Shown here piece after piece: positions 799-7,747 of a stretch of 64,000 bases of DNA. The DNA lies in contig NZ_CP011280.1 in NCBI RefSeq assembly GCF_000973085.1, positions 894,642 through 958,641 on the forward strand, read 5' to 3'. The first letter of the stretch is position 1; each line of letters starts with the position of its first letter. Source of the DNA: Sneathia vaginalis. GTDB lineage: Bacteria > Fusobacteriota > Fusobacteriia > Fusobacteriales > Leptotrichiaceae. The translations under genes were made by a program, and so were the position numbers. The notes under the pieces were generated by a model that searched no databases, was not told the origin of the DNA, and was given only the letters and a program-made list of their open reading frames with translations.

Positions 799-1515
799 TT
801 AAAATGCAGGTATTATTAAACCATTATATTTTTCTTCTATGAACTTTTTAACTTTTTCTGAACGTAATGCTTTCATTAATTTCTTTATCTTTTCGTCATT
901 TTCTCTACCCTTTAATACTGTTACTATATTAGCATATGGTGAATCTTTGCTTTCAACTAATATTGCTTTATCTTGAGGTATTTTGCTTGAAATAGCAAAG
1001 TTAGTATTAATAACTGCACCATCAACTTCTTTTAATCTTGGACCTATTTGTTCAGCATTTAATGGTGTAATATCTAAGTCCTTTAAATCTTTTAATAATG
1101 TTAAAGCTCTTGCCTTATTTGTTGGATCATTAGGTATTAATATCTTAGCGTGTTTTGGTAATTGTTTAACATCTGTATATTTATCTGAATAAAGTTTTAA
1201 TGGTTCTAAGTGTACTGCTCCAACACTTACTAAATCAATATTATTTTTCTTTCCAAATTCAATCATGTATGGTATATGTTGGAAGAAGTTAGCATCTAAG
1301 CTCTTATCTTTTAAACCTAAATTAGGTTGAACATAATCATTAAATACAACTATTTTTAAGTCTATTCCTTCCTTTTTCAAATCATCTTTTACTGCTTCAA
1401 CTATCTCTTTATGTGGAACTGGTGAAACCCCTATTACTAATGTATTGTTTTTCTTCCCTGAACATGACACTAATGTTAGTGTTAATAAAATAAATAATAA
1501 AATCTTTTTAATCAT
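799..1515 (-). CDS. metQ: Methionine ABC transporter substrate-binding lipoprotein MetQ
   Basis: This is the solute-binding component for (D/L-)methionine uptake, of the NlpA/MetQ family, anchored at the outer face of the inner membrane. The N-terminus is a lipoprotein signal with lipobox LVSC (Cys18), followed by GKKNNTLVIGVSPVPHKEIVE, the usual first strand of the family. The length of 238 residues is normal for the mature fold plus signal. It is the last gene of metN-metI-metQ, two bases after metI, with a GGAG box before the ATG. Methionine specificity is inferred from the family and the operon. Confidence 0.9.
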   Translation of the reverse strand: MIKKILLFILLTLTLVSCSGKKNNTLVIGVSPVPHKEIVEAVKDDLKKEGIDLKIVVFNDYVQPNLGLKDKSLDANFFQHIPYMIEFGKKNNIDLVSVGAVHLEPLKLYSDKYTDVKQLPKHAKILIPNDPTNKARALTLLKDLKDLDITPLNAEQIGPRLKEVDGAVINTNFAISSKIPQDKAILVESKDSPYANIVTVLKGRENDEKIKKLMKALRSEKVKKFIEEKYNGLIIPAF

Positions 1516-1517
1516 AA

Positions 1518-2159
1518 TTATCTCCCTCTTCTTTCTTCTACTGTTTTTGCAATTTTTGTCCCTAAATATTGTATTATTTGTACCAGTAATATGATTATCA
1601 CTGTTGATAGATACATTGTTTTTTGATCTGCTCTTTGATATCCTTCTATGACTGCCATATTACCTAATCCTCCACCACCAATTACACCAGCAATTGCTGT
1701 GTATGATACAAGTGAAATTAATGTTAGTGTTAGACCGTTAATAATAGCTGGCAATGCTTCAGGTATTAATATTTTAAATATTATTTGACAAGGTGTTGCA
1801 CCTATTGAAAGTCCCATTTCAATTAGCCCCTTATCTACATCATTTATTGCATTTTCTATTATTCTTGCAACAAATGGTACACTAGCTATAGAAAGTGGTA
1901 TTAAAAATGCTGTAGTTCCATATGATCTTCCTACTAATAGTCTTGATAATGGTATTAATAGGACTATTAGTATTACAAATGGTATTGATCTTGTAATATT
2001 AACTAATAGTACATCTAGTATTCTATGATATATTCTATTTTCGCATAAACCACCTTTTCTTGTAGTTATTAATGATATTCCTAATGGTATACCTAGTAAA
2101 CAAGATATTACCATTGAGACTAATAACATGTATATTGTTTCTAAAGTTGCATCAATCAT
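1518..2159 (-). CDS. metI: Methionine ABC transporter permease MetI
   Basis: This is a 213-residue inner-membrane permease with about five hydrophobic helices. The EAA loop, which contacts the ATPase, reads EMGLSIGATPCQIIFKILIPEALP, and GGGGLGNMAVIEGYQRAD is characteristic of MetI. The start codon overlaps the last codons of metN by 8 bases, which suggests translational coupling. Family length is normal. Confidence 0.92.
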   Translation of the reverse strand: MIDATLETIYMLLVSMVISCLLGIPLGISLITTRKGGLCENRIYHRILDVLLVNITRSIPFVILIVLLIPLSRLLVGRSYGTTAFLIPLSIASVPFVARIIENAINDVDKGLIEMGLSIGATPCQIIFKILIPEALPAIINGLTLTLISLVSYTAIAGVIGGGGLGNMAVIEGYQRADQKTMYLSTVIIILLVQIIQYLGTKIAKTVEERRGR

Positions 2160-2874
2160 TTTTTATACCTCCTATCAACTTCTTTGTGAATTCATTTTCT
2201 GGATTAGTAAATATTACATCCGTTTGTCCTTTTTCAATTATGTGCCCCTCCTTTATAACAGCTATTTTATTGCATATTTTTTTAATAACTTCCATTTGGT
2301 GTGTAATTACAACTATTGTAATTCCGAATTTTTTATTTATTCTTTGTAATAATTCTAATATATTATTTGCTGTTAAGGGGTCTAGTGCTGATGTTGCTTC
2401 ATCTGATAAAATTATCTTGGGATTAGTAATTAATGCCCTTGCAATAGCTACTCTTTGTTTTTGACCTCCAGACAACTTCTTTATATACTCATCTTTTTTA
2501 TCATACAATTCAACTAATTCTAGAACTCTTTCTATTTTTTGCTTATCGACATTACCAACTAATTCTAGAGGTAACTTGACATTTTCATAAACAGTTCTTG
2601 ATTCTAATAAATTAAAGTTTTGAAAAACCATAGATATTTCTTTTCTAAATTTTCTTAAATCTTTAACACTTAAATCTTTAACAACCTTACCATCTACCGT
2701 TAATTCCCCACTATCTATATCTTCTAATCGATTTATAGTTCTAATTAATGTGGATTTACCTGCTCCCGATAAGCCGACTATTCCAAATATGTCACCTTTC
2801 TCTATTTTTAGCGATATATCTTTTAAAACCTCAACATCTCCATATTTTTTACTTACATTTTTAAACTCTATCAT
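2152..2874 (-). CDS. metN: Methionine ABC transporter ATPase MetN, short form
   Basis: The ATPase subunit carries Walker A GLSGAGKST, Q-loop FQNFNLL, signature LSGGQKQR, Walker B IILSDEAT, D-loop SALD and the switch histidine in VVITHQ. It has only 240 residues and stops soon after the nucleotide-binding domain. Typical MetN proteins of about 340 residues carry a C-terminal NIL (ACT-like) domain that binds methionine and inhibits transport; that domain is absent here. The metNI pairing makes MetN more likely than a general polar amino acid ATPase. It lies directly behind a terminator-containing leader with a Met-rich peptide. Confidence 0.88.
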   Translation of the reverse strand: MIEFKNVSKKYGDVEVLKDISLKIEKGDIFGIVGLSGAGKSTLIRTINRLEDIDSGELTVDGKVVKDLSVKDLRKFRKEISMVFQNFNLLESRTVYENVKLPLELVGNVDKQKIERVLELVELYDKKDEYIKKLSGGQKQRVAIARALITNPKIILSDEATSALDPLTANNILELLQRINKKFGITIVVITHQMEVIKKICNKIAVIKEGHIIEKGQTDVIFTNPENEFTKKLIGGIKND

Positions 2875-2885
2875 GGTTACCTCCT

Positions 2886-2918
2886 AAAAAAAAATCAGAC
2901 ACAATTGTGTGCCTGATT
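2886..2918 (-). terminator. Intrinsic terminator in metN leader (attenuator)
   Basis: On the minus strand AATCAG-GCACAC-AATT-GTGTC-TGATT folds into an 11-bp stem with a 4-nt loop, followed by ten T. It ends just before the AGGAGG that serves metN, so it sits inside the transcript rather than after a gene. This is the layout of a transcription attenuator. Confidence 0.85.
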
Positions 2919-2994
2919 CATCAATCAATAATCATACCTCTTTAATGATTGGCACACGCAAACTAGCTTGTACCAAATCAAATTTAGTTACAAG

Positions 2995-3042
2995 CTACCT
3001 ACACATGTACATCATCATTAAAGTTAAAGCATAATTATTCAT
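2995..3042 (-). CDS. Met-rich leader peptide of metNIQ
   Basis: A 15-codon ORF reads MNNYALTLMMMYMCR. It starts at ATG 3042 with a perfect GGAGG nine bases upstream. Five of its 15 residues are methionine, four of them within five codons just before the stop (MMMYM). It lies between a consensus promoter and an intrinsic terminator upstream of a methionine transporter, as amino-acid attenuator leader peptides do (trp, his, leu operons). Its product is probably of no consequence: ribosome pausing at the Met codons would be the signal. Confidence 0.72.
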   Translation of the reverse strand: MNNYALTLMMMYMCR

Positions 3043-3077
3043 ATATATTTTCCTCCGTTTTTTTCATTTATGTTGTC

Positions 3078-3106
3078 ATTATACAACAATAAAAAAAATA
3101 TTGCAA
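3078..3106 (-). promoter_or_regulatory. metNIQ promoter
   Basis: On the minus strand TTGCAA (3101-3106), a 17-bp spacer and a perfect TATAAT (3078-3083) give a sigma70-type promoter. It starts only a few bases beyond the end of the autotransporter gene and would initiate near 3071. Confidence 0.75.
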
Positions 3107-3115
3107 GTACTTTTT

Positions 3116-5788
3116 TTAAAAAATATATGATAAAGTTATAGAAGTCCCTATTTTACTTGCACTATTGATACTCAAACTAGAAGCTAAAGTAAAATTATTA
3201 TTCATCATATATCTAATCATACCTTTATATTCAAAGATATTTTTATTTGGATTTTTACCCACTAATTTAAAGTCTGTATTAGCCATTCTTGCGTTTAGTT
3301 GTATATCTTCGCTTAAATTTCTTGTATACCCTATACGATTTATGAATGTAAGCTTATTATTCTTATACACAAGATTTAAACTAGGACTTAAATACCAACT
3401 ATTTATCGTATTATTCCTTAATTCTAGTAATATCCCTTGCATTAGTGTATCTGTTGCACTTTCTTTTACATGTCCTATGCTTGTATTCATATACCTAAGT
3501 GCTAATGAGGGGATAATAGACAAGTTTTCTGTTAACCCTAACACATATCCTGCTTTTAAGTCTAAGTTAAAAGTATTAGTATTAAACTTTGAATTTATTT
3601 CAACACTTCCATCATTAATATATCTTGTAGCCTTATTTTTACTCTTACTATACCCTAAATTAGATAATAGATATATATTTTTGTATGTATAATCTCCTGT
3701 TAAATTTACACTAATTGCATCATTTTGTATATTATTCTTATTCTTCTCAAAAAAATTGTAATTCGAGTTATGCATACCAAGTGAAAGTCCCATATTAAAA
3801 TCTTTAAACACTTTCTTTTTAATACCTATTGTGGCACCACTTACTCTTCTATTAAACAAGGTATACTTCTTACCATCATTTAAATTAAATGAATTATATG
3901 TATTAAAAAATACACTATTAGGCATTACATTCTCATATTCACTAATATTATTATTAATTATTTCATTTTGTATATCAATATTTTCGCTAATAAAGCTTGA
4001 GTAATTGTCTGTAAATATTCTCTCCAGTGCATAAGCTTCTGTGTCATTTCTTACATTTCTAAGTACTTCTGTATCCTTATACTCATCAAAAAACTTCTTT
4101 GTATTCATGTTATATGATGGTATATCTTTTAATTCTCCATCACTTAGATCTTTTAATTTCACTTTTTTATCTTTAATTTGATATACAGTATCACTGACTT
4201 TTTCTACTCTTAAGAAAGTATTTTTAAGGCTATTTTCATCCATTTCTAATTTTTTGTTACCCGTTATCTTAGGTAAGTCTTGTTTCCCATCGTTTTGTAC
4301 TACTAATTCTCCTTTTTGTACATAACTATTTGTTTGTATATCATCACTAATTATTGTCTTAGAATTAGCACTTGCATAGTAATTATTTACCTTTAGTTTC
4401 TTTCGTACCTCTAATACAGATTTATCATTTAAGACATCATTAGAAATATTTACATCTTTTTTATCTATTAGTAACTTTGATCCATTTAATATCTCATATT
4501 TAGACTTACTATCATTTTGTAAATTAAGTACTCCATCTAAAATTTGTGTTTTTGAAGTGTAGTTCTGTTTACCAGTTAATATTAGAGTTCCTTTACCATC
4601 TTTTCTAAAATTAGCTGGGTTATAGTAATTGTGTTCTGAATTAAGTATGCCTGGTATTCTATAGTTATATTTTCCTACCTTTACATATTCATCCGCCTTA
4701 TTTTTTTCTTTTAACCCACCTTCTATATCATTAGACCATGTATATGTTCCACTTGGTATATTAACGTACATATAGTAATTACCATACTCATCTTTTATCT
4801 TGTCTTTAGTGGAGTTATAGTATTTTTCTTCTTCAACTAAACCTAGATTAAATGCTCCAGGACCTTTTAATGCTTTTTCAAAATCAACATCGCCCCACCC
4901 ATATTTATTATCTAGACTACCATTATTTTTTGCTGTAGTTAATATTACTTGCTTAATTTGATTATACCTTAAAAAAGGATAACGTTTCTTTATTTCATAA
5001 GCTAGTCTTGTAACTCTAGGTGCTGAAAAACTAGAACCTGTCTTGCCAGATATATTACCATCTTCAAACACAACAAAAGACCTTAAAAGCATGGCTTTAT
5101 AGTTAGTATTAATATCTTTTCTACTCTTATTACCCACATAAATTATGTTGTTTCTAACTTCTTTTTGTGTTTCGCTATCTAATACTTGGTATATTGCTTG
5201 TAAATATGCACTAGTCCACTGATTTTCACCGCTATTACCTAGTGATTTTATACGTAACTGATTATTCTCACTACTCTTAACAGATATATATGGTTTATTC
5301 TTACTAAGTAAGCTTTTAGGATTGTGCTCTGATTCAGGATTTAAATAATCACCTAAATATAGATTACTTCCTCTTCTTATACCATGTGATATATTAATTA
5401 TCCCATTATACTCACCTTCACTATGGTGAAATTGTATATCATCGTTATTTATTCCATTTTTACCATTACTCAAAAATGAATCTAGCACTAATTTAGCATG
5501 AGTTTCATTTAAACTATCATACTTCCAAAAATCTCTTCTTAGCTTATCATTTAGCTGAGATACTATTAACCTTATATTCTTATTATCTTTACCTTCTATC
5601 TCAAAAAAATGAACTTCATTTTTTTCTTTCTTTTCTTTTCTTTCTTCTATTTTTCTTTCTTCTATTACTCGTTCTACTCTTTTAGGGGCATAACTAATAT
5701 CTAAACTGCTAGTCCTCGCTACACCACCACCTGCACCAGAACATGATAATATATTTATTGCTAATATTAAATAACCTATTTTCTTCAT
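3116..5788 (-). CDS. Lipoprotein autotransporter with subtilase-like (S8) passenger
   Basis: This is an 890-residue surface protein. The signal ends in lipobox ILSC (Cys16), followed by Gly-rich and Glu/Lys-rich segments. A compact S8-like region follows: NETHAK with a candidate catalytic His97, INISHG at 131-136 resembling the substrate-binding INMS motif, and GSSFSAP with candidate catalytic Ser253. I cannot find a convincing catalytic Asp motif. After YGWGDVDFEKAL comes an autotransporter-associated strand repeat (GTLILTGKQNYTSKTQILDG), and the last ~260 residues form a beta-barrel ending SYIF. Lipidated autotransporter proteases are known from Neisseria NalP. The gene starts one base after rimI, with an SD inside it, so it appears co-transcribed with lepB-rimI. 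The protease may be inactive. Confidence 0.8.
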   Translation of the reverse strand: MKKIGYLILAINILSCSGAGGGVARTSSLDISYAPKRVERVIEERKIEERKEKKEKNEVHFFEIEGKDNKNIRLIVSQLNDKLRRDFWKYDSLNETHAKLVLDSFLSNGKNGINNDDIQFHHSEGEYNGIINISHGIRRGSNLYLGDYLNPESEHNPKSLLSKNKPYISVKSSENNQLRIKSLGNSGENQWTSAYLQAIYQVLDSETQKEVRNNIIYVGNKSRKDINTNYKAMLLRSFVVFEDGNISGKTGSSFSAPRVTRLAYEIKKRYPFLRYNQIKQVILTTAKNNGSLDNKYGWGDVDFEKALKGPGAFNLGLVEEEKYYNSTKDKIKDEYGNYYMYVNIPSGTYTWSNDIEGGLKEKNKADEYVKVGKYNYRIPGILNSEHNYYNPANFRKDGKGTLILTGKQNYTSKTQILDGVLNLQNDSKSKYEILNGSKLLIDKKDVNISNDVLNDKSVLEVRKKLKVNNYYASANSKTIISDDIQTNSYVQKGELVVQNDGKQDLPKITGNKKLEMDENSLKNTFLRVEKVSDTVYQIKDKKVKLKDLSDGELKDIPSYNMNTKKFFDEYKDTEVLRNVRNDTEAYALERIFTDNYSSFISENIDIQNEIINNNISEYENVMPNSVFFNTYNSFNLNDGKKYTLFNRRVSGATIGIKKKVFKDFNMGLSLGMHNSNYNFFEKNKNNIQNDAISVNLTGDYTYKNIYLLSNLGYSKSKNKATRYINDGSVEINSKFNTNTFNLDLKAGYVLGLTENLSIIPSLALRYMNTSIGHVKESATDTLMQGILLELRNNTINSWYLSPSLNLVYKNNKLTFINRIGYTRNLSEDIQLNARMANTDFKLVGKNPNKNIFEYKGMIRYMMNNNFTLASSLSINSASKIGTSITLSYIF

Positions 5789-7474: not shown

Positions 7475-7747
7475 AGTCATACAAACTGGGGAGCTAGCGG
7501 TGCCCTGAATCCACAATCCGCTTTAGTGGAAGTCATATTAAATTTGAGGGAGACTTAGGTATTACGCCATATATTAAGGTGTTGAGAGTGTAGTCTTATT
7601 TGGTAGAAATTAGGCGAATTATGTCAGGTTGGGAACGAAGCAGCATTAAGTCTAGATTTCTAGGTTTATAAGGTAGCTATTACTTGAGCTAAGATATGTG
7701 AAACGGGTGTTTGGGTTGTTTCGATTATTTAATGTATGACCTTTTTT
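7475..7747 (+). ncRNA. ffs: Large (Alu-containing) signal recognition particle RNA
   Basis: The 5' part, CTGGGGAGCTAGCGGTGCC followed by CAATCCGCTTTAGTGGA, matches the Alu-domain start of Firmicutes-type large SRP RNA. The Ffh-binding domain IV is at about 7622-7651: GTCAGGTTG-GGAA-CGAAGCAGC keeps the GGAA tetraloop and the AAGCAG internal loop, with a G-C closing pair. Ends GTCATACA (7476-7483) and TGTATGAC (7733-7740) pair, and a T6 run follows. The RNA is ~270 nt, far longer than the ~110-nt E. coli 4.5S RNA. Confidence 0.93.

Follow-up and report, generated by a model that had tools for sequence, protein, structure and literature searches.

In the trp and his attenuators of enterobacteria, the OFF state arises when the ribosome covers region 2. 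Attenuators that rely on amino-acid leader peptides are known chiefly from Proteobacteria and Actinobacteria, those sensing methionine being rare predictions; a His case has been described in bacilli (PMC2965389). In Campylobacter jejuni, a Met leader peptide, MetL, was predicted before metBA and a termination/antitermination mechanism was proposed (PMC3847290), its translation has been seen (PMC11955535), and a second short ORF, CJsORF19 (MMYQMR), precedes Cj0772c, the gene for a Met-transport binding protein (PMC11955535). In Streptomyces lividans, metL (MSTTSDRTPATEATTTPGARCMCRRMCAF) lies before metNIQ and was proposed to act as a Met-dependent attenuator (PMC8079986). A survey of Actinobacteria found no Met structures (PMC1262725), and the Met importer of Lactococcus is under T-box control (PMC7058034). 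A sequence-only reading of the locus described below had called a Met-codon sensor an unusual design. Rare it is, but not unique, as the Met leader-peptide principle is already known from the predictions in Campylobacter and Streptomyces.

The window analyzed here is a 64,000-nt stretch of DNA from Sneathia vaginalis (NZ_CP011280.1, positions 894,642 to 958,641). On its minus strand, a leader spanning about 3071-2887 lies ahead of metN-metI-metQ, the genes of the Met ABC importer. The promoter, GGAGG sequence, 15-codon Met-rich ORF, 9-bp hairpin at the stop codon, GTGTGCC, terminator and metN gene named in the sequence-only reading are all present. The features are as follows.

3078-3106, minus strand: promoter of the sigma-70 type, TTGCAA-17-TATAAT, with 10 of 12 consensus matches (-35 box TTGCAA at 3106-3101, 17-nt spacer, -10 box TATAAT at 3083-3078)
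3052-3056, minus strand: Shine-Dalgarno (SD) sequence GGAGG of the leader ORF; an SD-like sequence is also found in all ten homologs
2995-3042, minus strand: leader peptide ORF, MNNYALTLMMMYMCR, 15 codons plus TAG
3019-3039, minus strand: region 1a, leader codons 2-8, predicted partner of 2b in the OFF (termination) state (minimum-energy fold and arm-swap test)
3004-3018, minus strand: region 1b, the predicted sensor, with Met codons 9, 10, 11 and 13 (ATGATGATGTACATG); 2a pairs with the 3' part of this region as well
2964-2997, minus strand: nested hairpin TAGCTTGTA...TACAAGCTA, 9 bp, beginning at the stop codon; its sequence hardly varies
2951-2957, minus strand: region 2a, GTGTGCC, predicted to pair with 1b (OFF) or with the terminator GGCACAC (ON)
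2923-2950, minus strand: region 2b, predicted to pair with 1a (minimum-energy fold and arm-swap test)
2887-2919, minus strand: intrinsic terminator, consisting of arms 3 and 4 and a U-run, with AGGCAC kept in all ten homologs
2913-2907, minus strand: GGCACAC, the antiterminator partner within the terminator
2152-2874, minus strand: metN, 240 aa, without the C-terminal NIL domain
1518-2159, minus strand: metI, permease
799-1515, minus strand: metQ, substrate-binding lipoprotein (PF03180)

The SD sequence of metN lies directly 3' of the terminator and its ATG is at 2874. The terminator hairpin (2919-2892) comprises 12 bp, one such hairpin being found against 0.1 expected in shuffles, and the leader as a whole folds at -64.4 kcal/mol (z = -9.4), a value matched by none of 200 shuffles. 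Given a local Met frequency of 2.4%, the probability of at least four Met residues in 14 codons is about 2.6e-4; conservation across the ten leaders is much stronger evidence than this value. Just upstream of the leader promoter lies an 890-aa ORF (3116-5788, minus strand), autotransporter-like with a C-terminal beta-domain as judged by eye only, and farther away a bacterial large SRP RNA is found on the plus strand (7477-7739; Rfam, 111 bits).

A covariance model of a 60-nt core was searched over 98 Fusobacteriota genomes. It yielded ten homologous leaders in nine genomes (G000, G001, G019, G020 and G028-G032) belonging to the window's genus, Oceanivirga, Streptobacillus and one more genus, every one of them upstream of metN. 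Values of E range from 1e-14 to 2e-18 in the nine genomes; the tenth leader, a second and diverged copy (MKNLVVVNVMMMHT) before another metN in one Streptobacillus-genus genome (L043 1433-1600, minus strand), scores 4e-6. The model gave nothing convincing in the remaining Fusobacteriota genomes of the set; weak matches, with E of 0.03-0.1, in G081 and in G091 were discounted, the one in G081 falling apparently within a coding gene. A core-pattern scan of 84,980 species' genomes added no lineage: its real matches were confined to Streptobacillus notomytis and Oceanivirga miroungae, and the other seven had a weak score or none with the covariance model. In a MetK phylogeny the tested leader-bearing genomes form one clade (support 99/97). 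MetN itself was found in 32 of the 33 genomes of the family. A Met/Cys leader, MKRFREAMCMS, was seen upstream of metN in a genome of genus g9 (G021, locus L022), with an 11-bp helix resembling 1a:2b (AAAAGATTTAG/CTAAATCTTTT) around a related hairpin and no clear antiterminator; it is possibly a distant relative.

Common to all ten homologs are the hairpin, (G)TGTGCC, a terminator containing AGGCAC, and an ORF that is preceded by an SD-like sequence, is rich in Met and carries two to three successive Met codons close to its end. Their peptides include MKYTTTFMMMHMYT, MKFAITLMMHM, MQFTTNFMMMYMCLSL, MKKFAKNMMMDM, MINKVVTFKMNMMHM, MINIVVILKKKMMHMY, MINNVVTFEMNMMHM and MKNLVVVNVMMMHT. The best promoter match is similar in most, ending 29-36 nt before the leader ATG, and weaker or farther away in three. 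The antiterminator complementarity GTGCC:GGCAC is kept in 10 of 10 leaders. ATGATG is invariant even though columns 1-5 of the core are unpaired, which points to a coding constraint. Comparison of the homologous sequences shows the elements themselves and the conservation of the Met codons, of the terminator and of the pairing of 1a with 2b considered next.

The main helix of the leader had been overlooked in the sequence-only reading: it is a 1:2 pairing of the leader ORF with GTGTGCC and the approximately 27 nt that follow. In the minimum-energy fold, the codons preceding the Met run (1a) pair with the stretch 3' of GTGTGCC (2b), and the Met codons (1b) with GTGTGCC (2a). The stop-codon hairpin lies enclosed by these pairings. 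The 1:2 element is complete, and its 2a part is alternatively complementary to the terminator GGCACAC. It had been remarked that the stop-codon hairpin and GTGTGCC do not overlap, so that the scheme may differ from trp. The difference from trp stands, but the puzzle disappears, since GTGTGCC is the partner of 1b and lies enclosed by 1a:2b.

Because a whole-leader MAFFT alignment misplaces 1a, 2b and one terminator, the helix was evaluated by an arm-swap test instead of pair counting. The 1a and 2b arms have undergone near-total sequence change between lineages, yet their mutual match is always kept. Over seven lineages, the assignment of each arm to its own partner is the best of 5,040 permutations, with duplex energies summing to -84.7 kcal/mol versus a mean of -37.0 (sd 9.4) for mismatched arms, and each 1a:2b helix beats its shuffles (at most 9 of 2000 do as well). 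This coevolution is the strongest evidence that the leader element is real and under selection.

The stop-codon hairpin (GCTTGTA...TACAAGC) behaves otherwise: unlike the rest of the structure, it has kept nearly the same sequence throughout the clade, and the attenuator scheme does not account for this. One could envisage that the hairpin binds a ligand or factor, or times the release of RNA polymerase or the ribosome, making the leader respond to a second signal along with Met-tRNA; we consider such an additional input unlikely. Alternatively, the ORF might be incidental and the hairpin, together with TTTGCGTGTGCC, might form the aptamer of an undescribed riboswitch or protein-binding leader. 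The near invariance of the nested hairpin and of 2a, with no two-sided changes, would fit this proposal, as would the lack of a match to any Rfam family. However, the SD sequence, the start codon and the conservation of Met codons at unpaired positions favor translation, and the predicted fold flips with ribosome position alone (see below), making an incidental ORF a most improbable explanation.

To follow the leader during translation, each homolog was folded with the ribosome footprint held unpaired, using three footprint sizes. If the A site lies within the Met run and arm 4 is not yet transcribed, the 2a:3 antiterminator is predicted in 10 of 10 leaders. Without a ribosome, or with one at the stop codon, folding gives 1a:2b and then the 3:4 terminator, less cleanly in one short leader (L003), where 1a is freed only partly at the stop and the terminator is still favored after arm 4 has emerged. 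In the window, the ON range covers A-site codons 6-12 and shuts at codon 13; generally it ends at, or within one to two codons of, the end of the Met run. These limits are largely robust to footprint size, the antiterminator effect being weak in one homolog (L019) and abolished there by the shortest footprint. At equilibrium with arm 4 present, the terminator beats the antiterminator in seven of the ten homologs, for which kinetic trapping has to be invoked; the antiterminator persists under these conditions in the window and L002 (at the first Met codons) and in L003. As predicted by these folds, the structure adopted at each ribosome position, and hence the leader geometry rather than codon content alone, fits a Met sensor.

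The model does not discriminate among codons within the ON range: a ribosome stalled at several others there also gives the antiterminator. This is what a general sensor of translation slowdown, akin to antibiotic-induced leaders and not specific for Met, would be expected to do. Specificity must then rest on Met, the sole residue common to all leaders in the ON range, and this, with the fact that the downstream genes are Met importers, leaves little room for a general sensor. An equally slight chance attaches to nascent-peptide arrest, in which the MM(M)[HYD]M end would stall the ribosome on free Met or SAM rather than on a shortage of charged tRNA-Met. The C-terminal MM[HYD]M motif is indeed well conserved, but the remainder of the peptide is not; the codons of the motif also pair with 2a, which accounts for the residue that separates the Mets; one copy has MMMHT as its end, and L022 has MCMS. 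Moreover, antitermination following a stall at high Met or SAM would have the wrong sign for an importer.

We therefore favor, with a probability of roughly 0.88, the interpretation that the leader is a ribosome-mediated transcription attenuator that controls metNIQ and senses Met, presumably in the form of charged elongator tRNA-Met. It has an SD-led ORF with a Met-codon cluster, an intrinsic terminator between this ORF and the first gene, and mutually exclusive 1:2, 2:3 and 3:4 pairings (1a:2b as judged by coevolution, 2a:3 by conserved complementarity); selection of the hairpin by ribosome position was seen in masked-footprint folding only. When Met is plentiful, the ribosome would pass the Met codons and reach the stop, leaving 1a exposed to pair with 2b; upon ribosome release, 1b would join 2a. 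With GTGTGCC trapped in the long hairpin, terminator 3:4 would form and transcription would stop before metN. When Met is scarce, the ribosome would wait at codons 9-11, masking 1a and 1b, and the free 2a (GTGTGCC) would pair with GGCACAC of the terminator 5' arm, allowing readthrough into metNIQ. If the leader were not translated, the full 1:2 hairpin would form, leading to termination. Met-tRNA supply would thus be the physiological signal to which expression responds. The ribosome-mediated attenuator with a Met-codon sensor suggested in the sequence-only reading is supported by the conservation of the Met ORF, the terminator and the GTGTGCC antiterminator among homologs, the comparison that had been recommended as a check. 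Neither a SAM or T-box match nor a loss of the Met codons or terminator among homologs, both named in that reading as grounds for refutation, was found. Its label of translation attenuator holds as to attenuation but not as to type, the scheme being one of translation-coupled transcription attenuation.

In the window's genus (the window and L002), MetN has lost its NIL domain, which is kept in the other clade members checked. Elsewhere, this domain is known for the inhibition of transport by Met. Its loss leaves the Met leader as a plausible main control of metNIQ in this genus. The window's genome has metK and a MetE-like gene; metH was not found in it, its metE has no such leader, and neither the core pattern nor the covariance model detects a second leader copy. 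S. amnii has been reported to lack most amino-acid synthesis (PMC3535699).

As the sequence-only reading had supposed, the leader contains neither a SAM riboswitch (at the gathering score) nor a T-box (RF00230), and it matches no other Rfam family even at E up to 10. Among the 98 Fusobacteriota genomes, SAM-I (RF00162) occurs in 83, that is, in 83 of the 89 without a Met leader; a genome-wide RF00162 search finds it in none of the nine Met-leader genomes. Leptotrichia-type relatives have a single SAM-I, which precedes metK, and the attenuator clade has kept metK but with no SAM-I ahead of it. In the sister family Fusobacteriaceae, the orthologous metN lies about 70-190 nt behind a SAM-I in 10 of 11 genomes with a match. 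Such control of the ortholog, and the T-boxes found on Met transporters elsewhere (PMC7058034), could suggest that the leader is a SAM riboswitch or T-box diverged past recognition. This is hardly credible in view of the Rfam scan, the lack of SAM-I in all nine genomes and of any T-box over the cut-off in the family, and the lack of conservation of UGGN (the tRNA-acceptor pairing sequence) in the hairpin. The attenuator clade is one without SAM-I, its Met importer instead being set, by prediction, for reading by Met-codon translation. Since the metN of Leptotrichia has neither SAM-I nor Met leader, direct displacement of SAM-I at metN is no more than a possibility. An evolutionary swap between sensor types becomes directly testable in this clade.

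A literature search that covered few subscription papers found no published description of the Fusobacteriota metN Met leader, which is a candidate for a new RNA family, as Rfam 15 does not include it. It provides a case of attenuation in Fusobacteriota whose anatomy is backed by coevolution. SAM-I, at metN in Fusobacteriaceae and at metK of the Leptotrichia type, resembles it in controlling the orthologous metN in the sister family; it differs in sensing SAM directly and in being missing from the Met-leader genomes. The S. lividans metL, compared here by description, has an identical target operon and is likewise a proposed Met attenuator, but it is leaderless, mixes Cys and Met with no Met run, and its authors found no typical Rho-independent terminator (PMC8079986). 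C. jejuni MetL and CJsORF19, also compared by description, are similarly short Met-codon ORFs before Met genes, proposed to be leader peptides; they belong to a different phylum, are confined to C. jejuni and close relatives and, in the accessible parts of the reports, come with neither alternative RNA structures nor covariation, unlike the Fusobacteriota leader. Like the trp and his attenuators, the Fusobacteriota leader has a peptide with many codons for the amino acid under regulation, hairpins that exclude one another and an intrinsic terminator ahead of the first gene. It departs from them in that the amino acid is Met, in that the stop codon is followed by 2a only after about 40 nt, beyond the ribosome, and in that the OFF state would be set by codons re-pairing behind the ribosome, through 1a:2b.
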